A DNA stretch of 64,000 nucleotides from an uncultured Flavobacteriales bacterium (GTDB taxonomy: Bacteria > Bacteroidota > Bacteroidia > Flavobacteriales_G > Salibacteraceae): assembly GCA_943788725.1 (NCBI GenBank), contig CALSRJ010000003.1, positions 372,001 through 436,000 on the forward strand. The letters run 5' to 3'. How positions within the stretch are numbered: the first letter of the stretch is position 1; the number at the start of each line of letters is the position of its first letter. This document shows positions 5,607-41,906 of this stretch, piece after piece. Below the pieces are notes generated by a model. The model was given only the letters and a program-made list of their open reading frames with translations. It was not told the origin of the DNA and ran no database searches. A program made the position numbers and the translations under genes.

Positions 5607-5699
5607 ATCCTTTATTTTGGTAGGCGATAAAGTGAGTCTATGACTTTGGGAAGTCGATCAGTTAATGTGCTAATGTACTGATGAGCTGATGAAACAGGA

Positions 5700-16981: not shown

Positions 16982-17049
16982 AAAGCCTCCCACCATTCAC
17001 TAATCGTCTAATTATCTAATCATCTAATTCTCAAATCGCCCCATCATCC

Positions 17050-39290: not shown

Positions 39291-40646
39291 ATGATTTCAA
39301 GCATCATTTTCTCGGTACTTATTCTGACTACCGCAGTTATTTTCATTGTGCGCATTCGTCAGATCAACGCCAACATAAACCTTGGACGCGACATCGATCT
39401 ATCTGATCGACCTTCTGAACGTTGGAAGACCATGGCAAGAGTAGCCCTCGGACAAAGCAAGATGGTCGCGCGACCGTTTGCTGGCATCATGCACATTTTC
39501 ATCTACGTTGGTTTCATTTTGATCAATCTTGAAGTACTCGAGATCCTGATCGATGGAGTGTTTGGAACCCATCGCATTTTCTACCAATTCTTGGGGTCAG
39601 ATACTTACCACACCTTCATTGGCTTTTTTGAATTGCTTGCTTTTCTCGTACTTTTTGCCTGTGTGGCATTTTTGGTCCGCAGAAACGTCGGAAGGCTGAA
39701 GCGATTTTCGGGAACAGAAATGACGGCTTGGCCGAAGTCGGATGCCAACATCATCCTGATCGTTGAAAGCTTGCTTATGATTGCCGTGCTTACGATGAAT
39801 GCGGCAGACAGCGTGCTGTTTGCTTTGCCTGATGCAACGGTGATGACGGCGGGCTTATCTCATTATACCGGCATCGAGTTCGATGGTTGGTTTTGGTTTA
39901 GCGGATACCTGACGGGGATGCTTCCCAATGATCCAACCACCTTGTTTTATATCGAACGCGCTTGTTGGTGGTTTCACATCGTTGGCATTTTTGGATTCCT
40001 CATCTACATTCCTTACTCCAAGCATTTCCACATTTTCTTGGCGTTTCCAAATACCTATTATTCAAAGTTGGAGCCGGCAGGTGAGTTGACCAACCTCGAA
40101 AGCGTAAAGAAGGAAGTGGAGTTGATGATGGATCCGAACCAAGATCCATTTGCGGCCCCAGCTGCCGATGCAATACCAGCGGAACCCCAACGCTTCGGAG
40201 CAAAAGACGTAACCGACCTGAGTTGGAAGAACTTGATGGATGCCTATAGCTGCACAGAATGTGGTCGCTGCACCTCTGAGTGTCCAGCCAATCAAACAGG
40301 TAAATTACTGTCGCCTCGTAAGATCATGATGGATACGCGAGACAGGGCAGAGGAATTGGGAGCGCACAAAAGAAAGAACGGCGCTGAAGCTGACGACGGT
40401 AAGAGCTTGCTCGGCGATTACATCACCAAAGAAGAACTTTGGGCCTGCACCACTTGCAACGCTTGTACAGATGCGTGTCCAGTAAACATCAATCCGCTCA
40501 ACATCATCGTTGACCTACGTCGCTTCTTGGTGATGGAAGAGTCAGCAGCGCCGAATGAGCTGAATACCATGTTTACCAACATAGAAAACAACGGAGCGCC
40601 ATGGCAATTCGCGATGGCAGATCGAGCGAATTGGAGAGACGAGTAA
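39291..40646 (+). CDS. Membrane Fe-S oxidoreductase (HdrE/HdrC-like fusion)
   Basis: The 451-residue protein joins a membrane part of about five helices (residues 1-270, NarI/HdrE-like, with histidines such as 'IMHIFIYVGF' and 'WWFHIVGIFGF' as possible haem ligands) to a cytoplasmic ferredoxin part with two 4Fe-4S motifs: 'CTECGRCTSECP' and 'CTTCNACTDACP'. Together with the CCG-domain protein 470 bp downstream it forms a heterodisulfide-reductase-like electron-transfer module. Such modules are common in Bacteroidetes, but the electron donor and acceptor are unknown. The pair is interrupted by the four-helix-bundle gene. Confidence 0.9.
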   Translation: MISSIIFSVLILTTAVIFIVRIRQINANINLGRDIDLSDRPSERWKTMARVALGQSKMVARPFAGIMHIFIYVGFILINLEVLEILIDGVFGTHRIFYQFLGSDTYHTFIGFFELLAFLVLFACVAFLVRRNVGRLKRFSGTEMTAWPKSDANIILIVESLLMIAVLTMNAADSVLFALPDATVMTAGLSHYTGIEFDGWFWFSGYLTGMLPNDPTTLFYIERACWWFHIVGIFGFLIYIPYSKHFHIFLAFPNTYYSKLEPAGELTNLESVKKEVELMMDPNQDPFAAPAADAIPAEPQRFGAKDVTDLSWKNLMDAYSCTECGRCTSECPANQTGKLLSPRKIMMDTRDRAEELGAHKRKNGAEADDGKSLLGDYITKEELWACTTCNACTDACPVNINPLNIIVDLRRFLVMEESAAPNELNTMFTNIENNGAPWQFAMADRANWRDE

Positions 40647-40657
40647 ACCAGAAAATG

Positions 40658-40678
40658 GCAGTCCGCAGTGCGCAGTCA
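40658..40678 (+). repeat. Heptamer tandem repeat, left flank of the four-helix-bundle gene
   Basis: Three 7-base units GCAGTCC, GCAGTGC and GCAGTCA stand in tandem. The reverse complement of the same heptamer is repeated on the right side of the gene (41072-41105), so the gene is bracketed by inverted heptamer arrays. Confidence 0.75.
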
Positions 40679-40685
40679 AGAAAGT

Positions 40686-41051
40686 ATGAGTTTTAAGACA
40701 CTTTTGGCATATCAGAAAGGATTTGAACAGGCCATGTTGTGCTTTGAATTATCGAAATCATTTCCTCCAGAGGAGAAATTTGATCTTACGAGTCAAATCA
40801 GACGGTCTTCCAGAAGTGTATGCGCCCAAATAGCTGAGGAATATAGGAAGAAGAACTATCCGAAGTTTTTTGTAAGTAAACTCGTCGACGCCGATAGCGA
40901 GAATTCTGAAACAAGTCTCTGGCTTGACTTTGCTGAAGCTTGTGCTTACTTGAGTTCGGAACAACTAAAGAGAGTGGTAAATCTGAATGAAGAAGTAGGA
41001 AGACTTATAAAATATATGATCGATAATCCCAGCAAGTTCGGAGTTCGATAG
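40686..41051 (+). CDS. Four-helix-bundle protein (S23/23S rRNA-intervening-sequence family)
   Basis: The 121-residue, all-helical protein matches the family found in 23S rRNA intervening sequences and in DGR accessory proteins (bAvd). Hallmarks are 'LAYQKGFEQAMLCFELSKSF', 'QIRRSSRSVCAQIAEEY' and 'DADSENSETSLWLDFAEACA'. Basic residues suggest nucleic-acid binding, and relatives form pentamers. The ATG at 40686 is used; a GTG at 40668 lies inside the heptamer repeat. It sits between two genes of a redox operon and is flanked by inverted heptamer arrays, so it appears to have been inserted as a unit. No DGR reverse transcriptase or rRNA is nearby. Confidence 0.9.
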   Translation: MSFKTLLAYQKGFEQAMLCFELSKSFPPEEKFDLTSQIRRSSRSVCAQIAEEYRKKNYPKFFVSKLVDADSENSETSLWLDFAEACAYLSSEQLKRVVNLNEEVGRLIKYMIDNPSKFGVR

Positions 41052-41071
41052 AGCCAGATTGATCGAAAGGT

Positions 41072-41105
41072 CACTGCGCACTGCGCACTGTGTACTGCTG
41101 ACTAC
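41072..41105 (-). repeat. Heptamer tandem repeat, right flank of the four-helix-bundle gene
   Basis: After an initial C, the units ACTGCGC, ACTGCGC, ACTGTGT and ACTGCTG stand in tandem. Their reverse complement matches the units at 40658-40678. It ends 9 bp before the ATG of the CCG-domain gene. Confidence 0.75.
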
Positions 41106-41114
41106 TAAAAATAG

Positions 41115-41906
41115 ATGTCAGATACAATTCGTATAAAAACAATGGCCGAAATGGCCGCAGCAGGTGAATCCCCCGAGGTACTCTTTTGGGTAGGGTGCAT
41201 GGGGAGCTTTGATGATCGCGCCAAGAAGATCACGAAGGCATTTGCGAAATTGCTGAATCGGGCCAACGTAAAATTTGCGGTATTGGGTACCGAAGAGTCC
41301 TGTTCGGGTGACCCAGCCAAGCGATCGGGAAATGAGTTCTTGTTCCAGATGCAAGCATTTGCGAACATTCAGGTGCTGAATGCCTATGAGGTGAAGCGCA
41401 TAGTTACGGCGTGTCCGCATTGTTTCAATACGCTTAAAAACGAATATCCTGAGCTCGGTGGAAACTATGAAGTCATCCATCACACGCAATTCATCAATAC
41501 TTTGTTCAAGGAAGGAAGACTCACCGTAGAGGGAGGTTCTTTCAAAGGCAAGCGCATCACCTTCCACGATCCTTGCTACCTGGGTCGGGCGAACGATGTC
41601 TACGAAGCACCCAGAGAAGTGCTGCAGAAACTGGACGCGGAGCTGGTTGAAATGAAGCGATGCAAGCAACGCGGGCTTTGCTGTGGAGCAGGAGGAGCAC
41701 AAATGTTCAAGGAAGCCGAGAAGGGCGACAAAGAAGTGAACGTTGAGCGTACTGAAGATGTGATCGAGTCGAAGGCCGACATCGTCGCCGCAGGCTGCCC
41801 ATTTTGCAATACGATGATGACAGATGGCGTGAAGCACTTCAACAAAGAAGATGAAATCAGCGTAAAAGACATTGCAGAATTGATTGCCGAAGCAGCAGAC
41901 CTATGA
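41115..41906 (+). CDS. CCG-domain (cysteine-rich) Fe-S oxidoreductase, HdrB-like
   Basis: The 263-residue soluble protein has two cysteine-rich CCG domains of the HdrB/GlpC/LutA type: 'VLFWVGCMGSFDDRA' with 'CSGDPAKRSG' and 'TACPHCFNTLKNEYP', then 'TFHDPCYLGR', 'GLCCGAGGAQMF' and 'AAGCPFCNTMM'. These motifs bind non-cubane or 4Fe-4S clusters that handle thiols or quinone electrons. It should receive electrons from the Fe-S membrane protein at 39291-40646. The ATG lies just after the heptamer array. The following gene overlaps its stop by four bases. Confidence 0.92.
   Translation: MSDTIRIKTMAEMAAAGESPEVLFWVGCMGSFDDRAKKITKAFAKLLNRANVKFAVLGTEESCSGDPAKRSGNEFLFQMQAFANIQVLNAYEVKRIVTACPHCFNTLKNEYPELGGNYEVIHHTQFINTLFKEGRLTVEGGSFKGKRITFHDPCYLGRANDVYEAPREVLQKLDAELVEMKRCKQRGLCCGAGGAQMFKEAEKGDKEVNVERTEDVIESKADIVAAGCPFCNTMMTDGVKHFNKEDEISVKDIAELIAEAADL

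Follow-up and report, generated by a model that had tools for sequence, protein, structure and literature searches.

The 64-kb window analyzed here, i.e., the whole stretch of 64,000 nucleotides taken from contig CALSRJ010000003.1 of an uncultured Flavobacteriales bacterium, contains a small gene of the S23/IVP four-helix-bundle family set between two inverted arrays of tandem 7-mers. Our main finding is that inverted arrays around S23 genes are a rule of the family and not a local oddity: S23 genes are accompanied by such arms in several phyla, a statement that we regard as virtually certain. The feature in the window is best explained as a member of a compact and widespread type of cassette, in which an S23 gene of ~0.35 kb lies between inverted arms. 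The typical arm holds five tandem units of 7 nt (8 or 6 nt in some clades) with a conserved core that is mostly AG. The first-pass annotation of this DNA had placed the gene and its inverted 7-mer arrays between the genes of a redox operon, and both protein profiles and array coordinates bear this out. To our knowledge, no function has been described for S23/IVP proteins outside rRNA, and we know of no partner for heptanucleotide arrays, which have been familiar for decades.

Inverted tandem arms around S23 genes

S23 genes and their flanks were gathered from family and phylum genomes, named genome contigs and plasmids; the best flank period was sought from 4 to 12, and 115 windows of the same loci served as controls. 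Pooling gave 203 S23 loci, for the most part from Bacteroidota, with a best period of 7 in 146, 8 in 39 and 6 in 7. The whole-genome set of 129 loci yielded periods of 7, 8 and 6 in 89, 25 and 7 loci, respectively, and an additional genome-contig set of 80 loci had period 7 in 60 and period 8 in 16. Among the control windows, period 7 came out best in 10 and period 8 in 4, with scores far lower than those of the S23 flanks. Moreover, S23 loci on cyanobacterial plasmids—examined after the rule had been formed—displayed a strong period of 7 in nine out of nine cases. The gene itself was present in 116 of the 148 sampled Bacteroidota genomes, in up to 16 copies.

The arms of a locus are related by inversion. 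Left arms compared with reverse-complemented right arms reached a median score of 17 (9 in pairs mismatched between loci); the 95th percentile of the null was exceeded by 72% of the loci in this inverted orientation and by 16% in the direct orientation. Polarity is fixed, with a GC skew of +0.46 (G over C) in left arms and -0.47 in right arms. The repeat unit varies between loci; within one locus, both arms carry it, inverted. Of the four S23 genes in the genome from which the window derives, the window gene is flanked by GCAGTNN, L002 by CTAGGNN, L003 by GGGATTN (on one side only) and L001 by a weak repeat. The earlier expectation that GCAGTGC would mark every family member was therefore wrong, and this motif was rejected as a family-wide signal since the unit differs by locus. 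Absence of arrays around other family members, which had been named as a refuting outcome, was not what we found, as most members are flanked by arrays.

Some individual loci merit separate mention. On a plasmid of Pseudanabaena galeata (L358), the cas6 and cas4 genes of a CRISPR-Cas locus flank an S23 cassette with long arms of more than 10 copies. Compound arrays at L351 (1455-1533) and L350 (1440-2352) combine different 7-mers in one 7-nt register, e.g., GGAATTA, GGTACAA and GGAGCTA, as if one array had been extended by successive events. Two or three S23 genes were seen in clusters of a few kb, and in-frame stops occur in some (G005 contig C55, L060 and L084; L086; L088). Additionally, the taxon labels of metagenome-assembled genomes (MAGs) are possibly wrong, as exemplified by L243: the flanks of this locus, labeled Limnohabitans, match a Flavobacterium locus at 76-78% identity over ~1 kb. 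The contig is assigned to a betaproteobacterial MAG, and the DNA to either side of its S23 gene resembles that of Flavobacterium—probably a case of MAG contamination.

Five units per arm and their coupling to the protein

When the uninterrupted run of the best core dinucleotide was counted in each arm, exactly five copies were present in 140 of 370 arms, with four in 74 and six in 50. Dinucleotide shuffles of the arms peaked at two to three copies and reached five in 2 of 370. An AG-only count, which leaves no free choice of core, gave five copies in 103 arms, four in 40 and six in 23; on the opposite strand, it gave five in just 4 arms. When loci less than 55% identical were drawn at random 200 times, the mode was five in every draw. 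The solved relatives 2GSC (XCC0516) and 2RLD contain five chains per entry each. If S23 proteins assemble into five-membered rings, as these chain counts suggest, the arrays may be docking sites of S23. A single strand of 30-40 nt would fit round a ring of ~6 nm, a curvature to which double-stranded DNA could not bend.

The repeat period also follows the protein. Mapped onto the S23 tree, it changes 13 times, versus at least 18 times in 200 shuffles. Agreement in period between nearest neighbors was well above that in shuffles for relatives up to 60-70% identity and was lost below 50%—so the period is a property of clades that is lost over deep divergences. Strong 6-, 7- and 8-mer cassettes occur together in one genome (G020), which excludes a slippage size common to the whole host. 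The two arms of a locus also evolve together: at orthologous sites, arm similarity within a locus exceeded that between loci in 147 of 167 pairs, a descriptive figure, as the pairs overlap. Mismatches between arms include 207 G-U pairs on the sense strand versus 242 on the antisense strand; there is no excess, so selection for RNA pairing is not clear. Recognition of both arms, or homogenization at the DNA level, would fit these data better than RNA pairing. The protein itself is under strong purifying selection (dN/dS of 0.02-0.11 in 23 S23 pairs), which means that it is used and does not indicate by whom.

The explanation we favor is a promoterless selfish or passenger cassette with pentamer docking on its arms, one repeat per subunit, and we give it an even chance of being correct. 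S23 would form a ring of five, around which a single-stranded nucleic acid would wrap, with each subunit reading one repeat, and each arm would be the docking site for one pentamer. The gene would be expressed through operon read-through. The cassette would persist as a selfish or passenger element; occasionally it would relocate or be replaced at an operon junction, with solo arrays staying behind, and the enzyme that moves it would be supplied by the host. A broader proposal, which we put forward tentatively and hold to be somewhat less than an even bet, is that S23 and its five-unit inverted arms constitute a new class of cognate protein-repeat element. Here, a homopentameric ring would take up one 6-, 7- or 8-nt unit per subunit, the unit would co-evolve with the protein, and solo heptamer arrays—the short tandemly repeated repetitive sequences (STRRs) of cyanobacteria, Xanthomonas GGGAATC and others—would be docking sites or relics. 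If an arm is indeed the docking site of a pentamer, the puzzles of S23 function and of heptamer arrays would share one answer; such a selfish or regulatory element would be recurrently colonizing the junctions of beta-oxidation and respiratory operons.

The window cassette and turnover at operon junctions

The features of the window locus are collected in Table 1. The window protein scores above the cutoffs of both PF05635 (E=2.7e-25; 89.1 bits, cutoff 33.8) and TIGR02436 'four helix bundle protein' (1.9e-22; 79.6 bits, cutoff 24), and it matches the bAvd profile at 7.8e-10. An alternative GTG start at 40668 lies within the left array; the ATG was taken as the start because the orthologue in a relative (G009) likewise opens with MSFKTLLAYQ. 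The left array reads GCAGTCCGCAGTGCGCAGT. In the right arm, the plus-strand CT cores fall at 41074, 41081, 41088, 41095 and 41102, with exact 7-nt spacing, and this arm is the sole site in the whole window where a dinucleotide recurs at least five times at period 7. The 18-nt arms are 94% complementary over 396 nt, and the cassette folds with its arms paired (-131.5 kcal/mol, z = -2.3). Between them lies the S23 open reading frame (ORF) alone, with no transposase. 'Hdr-like module', as the surrounding genes had been called, is a fair name for neighbors of HdrC/SdhB-like and TfrB/LdhH/GlpC-like type. A PADLOC scan for defense systems gave no match. Elsewhere in the window, 8-mer tandem arrays of about four units occur at 17000-17038 (CTAATNNT type) and 5663-5692 (TAATGTGC type); no S23 gene was detected near either of them, and they are possible solo arrays.

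Table 1. Coordinates of the S23 cassette and its host genes in the 64-kb window
Feature	Position	Strand	Remarks
S23/IVP-type four-helix-bundle gene, 121 aa	40686..41051	+	PF05635, bAvd and TIGR02436 profiles; operon-sense
Left arm, 3 copies of GCAGTNN, AG cores at 40660, 40667 and 40674	40658..40676	+	Ends 9 nt 5' of the start codon
Right arm, inverse of the left, NNACTGC units, five minus-strand AG cores	41072..41103	-	
Upstream host gene, Fe-S membrane protein with two 4Fe-4S motifs	39291..40646	+	HdrC/SdhB-like Fe-S domains
Downstream host gene, CCG (cysteine-rich) domain protein	41115..41906	+	TfrB/LdhH/GlpC-like

In the wider sample, both neighbors were co-directional with S23 in 154 of 186 loci, and shared junctions held 109 of the 203 loci. 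The junction between a FadJ-like dehydrogenase and thiolase accounted for 29 loci across Bacteroidota (including L136, L125 and L243), that between thiolase and acyl-CoA dehydrogenase for 12, and that between 3-hydroxyacyl-CoA dehydrogenase and thiolase for 7; DinB/DnaE is another shared junction, where the own-genome copy L002 resides. Among the 129 loci not picked by similarity to one query, thiolase was a neighbor in 24 and 3-hydroxyacyl-CoA dehydrogenase in 20. The S23 proteins of the FadJ-thiolase junction are 16-85% identical to one another, with the nearest relative at another site for 14 of the 29—a diversity that would be expected from repeated invasion.

At the window junction, most relatives have no S23, and the gene is thus not the fixed part of the operon that it might have been. 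A near relative with a 97% identical CCG protein (G008) has a short hairpin of another 7-mer and no S23, G015 has five CAATAGG units, G009 has the orthologous S23 with GYAGTNN arms, and the remaining relatives have a bare spacer of 10-30 nt. Likewise, in another genus, two species carry an S23 cassette at the FadJ-thiolase site, three have other arrays there and one has a bare site. Alignments of occupied with empty sites, made to look for target-site duplication, showed strongly diverged spacers that hold other arrays. Indirect evidence for movement of the cassette comes from S23 genes that are near-identical at unrelated sites (e.g., L241/L248 and L248/L252) and from different S23 lineages at one junction. 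The first-pass description of a mobile cassette with recognition arrays therefore stands in part: the unit is discrete, missing from the junction in most relatives and devoid of its own transposase, and its inverted arrays are general to the family, while mobility and recognition keep the conditional standing given above.

Solo arrays were counted genome-wide by pattern searches and in sampled 20-kb stretches. Eight were found in S23-rich genomes, where they outnumber the S23 genes, versus 1 in S23-less genomes, in ~0.4 Mb each—a weak difference (p ~0.045). Among 13 genomes of the genus, GCAGT arrays occurred in 4 and CTAGG arrays in 2, and G008 carries many GCAGT arrays despite the missing S23 at the window site. 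An IS110-like transposase gene (L008 1593-2645) directly adjoins GCAGT arrays, and L008 and L011 share a long identical stretch; similar end sequences are located at other GCAGT arrays (L011-L015 and, in the window's own genome, C1:81675, C3:724835, C3:741118, C3:741355 and C3:752004), as if an IS110-like insertion sequence targeted heptamer arrays.

Competing readings and related systems

Several points weigh against the favored explanation. The loci share ancestry, so their counts are not independent and raw numbers overstate independence; moreover, arms are weak or unresolved in ~1/3 of the larger set. Overlap is a particular concern for the 167 same-site pairs. The pentameric state of S23 is inferred from the chain counts in two crystal entries of relatives, and the left arm of the window cassette has just three cores where the right arm has five. 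Strong selection on S23 is compatible both with a selfish element and with one that benefits its host. Close S23 pairs are mostly at orthologous sites, and vertical inheritance therefore dominates, with movement being rare. Finally, arrays without S23 are several times more common than S23 genes, and arrays may exist, or arise, independently of the gene.

Two alternatives grant the protein or its arms a role in RNA. In one, which we consider unlikely, the cassette would resemble an intervening sequence (IVS): the arms would pair in the operon mRNA, a cut by RNase III would free the cassette and leave the host genes unharmed, and the arms would be kept for pairing only. In its favor, S23 proteins are those of 23S rRNA IVSs, whose ends form a stem that RNase III cleaves (PMC4990558); the fold of the window cassette has its arms paired, and the cassettes are sense-oriented in operons. 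However, sense-strand G-U pairs are not in excess, and pairing leaves the fixed AG polarity, the tandem period and the five-copy mode unexplained. Furthermore, no sampled S23 locus lies within 23S rRNA, as judged by blastn with the own 23S locus, which returned one 76-nt match in L080, to the spacer portion of the query. The idea that the groups of loci with homologous flanks might be 23S rRNA IVSs was also discarded: Rfam found no rRNA there, and the flanks are protein genes, mostly of beta-oxidation. The other alternative, to which we assign a similarly low probability, is a host-useful regulator akin to TRAP, whereby an S23 ring on the five-repeat arm of its own operon mRNA would switch a competing hairpin and tune the downstream gene, chiefly in beta-oxidation operons. 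The strong purifying selection on S23, the recurrence of the same fatty-acid and electron-transfer junctions (with the thiolase and 3-hydroxyacyl-CoA dehydrogenase neighbors counted above) and the fixed-spaced NAG cores, which recall TRAP sites, are in its favor. Yet presence is patchy even among close species, the divergence and scattered relationships of the FadJ-thiolase S23s look like repeated invasion, and an inverted second arm of equal copy number would be needless.

That arrays and gene are associated only passively—7-mer microsatellites arising by polymerase slippage between genes, with S23 genes landing or surviving nearby—is very improbable in our view. Heptamer arrays without S23 are common in S23-rich genomes (~7 per 400 kb), and slippage had earlier been proposed for 7-mers (reported in PMC4679880); however, the arms are inverted with fixed polarity, their copies peak at five, and the arms of one locus change together. 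Generic slippage is also contradicted by the dependence of the period on the S23 clade within one genome (G020). We attach hardly any weight to a retroelement of the diversity-generating (DGR) type, in which S23 would act like Avd alongside a reverse transcriptase of the host. The similarity of the window protein to bAvd, and a weak similarity of some relatives to DivGenRetAVD, would agree with it. Nonetheless, the protein is below the Avd equivalog cutoff, with no match to NF033474 for the window protein and 30.1 and 22.2 bits for relatives (cutoff 80). The own genome, with its four S23 genes, has no RVT_1 match, and RVT_1 was matched in 59 of 148 genomes versus S23 in 116, leaving at least 57 S23-bearing genomes with no detectable reverse transcriptase. 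Reverse-transcriptase dependence was rejected on these grounds. Dependence on a Y1 transposase was rejected as well, since some S23-rich genomes have no match to PF01797, namely G078 (9 copies) and G133 (5 copies).

Returning to the docking cassette that we favor, its relation to known systems can be outlined as follows. The likeness to TRAP, which is inferred, lies in a ring protein with one NAG-type unit per subunit at fixed spacing; TRAP, in contrast, is unrelated to S23, forms an 11-mer ring and binds a single RNA site with no inverted second arm. The DGR accessory protein Avd (bAvd) belongs to a related four-helix-bundle fold family, whereas the cassette has no reverse transcriptase, template or variable repeat. 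REP/BIME (repetitive extragenic palindromic/bacterial interspersed mosaic element) repeats with RAYT transposases share with the cassettes a cognate protein, many solo repeats and inverted pairs. RAYT is an HUH nuclease. REP/BIME repeats are palindromic; the cassette arrays, by contrast, consist of tandem units, and S23 has no match to a transposase family.

The closest known parallel is the 23S rRNA IVS with an S23 ORF (e.g., in Coxiella and Leptospira), the ends of which form a stem: the two share the protein family, small size, an ORF between complementary ends and suspected selfishness (PMC4990558). The IVS sits in 23S rRNA helices with a plain stem, whereas the cassettes are found at operon junctions in mRNA, and their arms are tandem, with a period that depends on the clade and a copy number that peaks at five. 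Because it is not located in 23S rRNA, we do not class the cassette as an IVS, although it may work in a related manner.

With respect to the arms, cyanobacterial STRRs and the heptanucleotide arrays of Xanthomonas (GGGAATC), Nostoc (GGGGATT) and Beggiatoaceae (TAACTGA; PMC4679880) are, like those of the window, 7-nt, intergenic, tandem and degenerate. The Xanthomonas and Nostoc arrays mostly have four units, and 70 convergent pairs are known from X. campestris (PMC4692102). A text search found no mention of S23 in the main text of that article, and we found no paper linking S23 to heptamer arrays in the open-access PMC literature, preprints lying outside that search. No S23 link was found in the articles on the published arrays, whereas those described here are tied to a gene, its clade and a copy number. 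X. campestris, with its 70 inverted pairs, encodes the S23 protein of 2GSC, and both the Xanthomonas and the Nostoc lineages carry S23. By these features, the GGGAATC and GGGGATT arrays look like the same arrays as the S23 arms.
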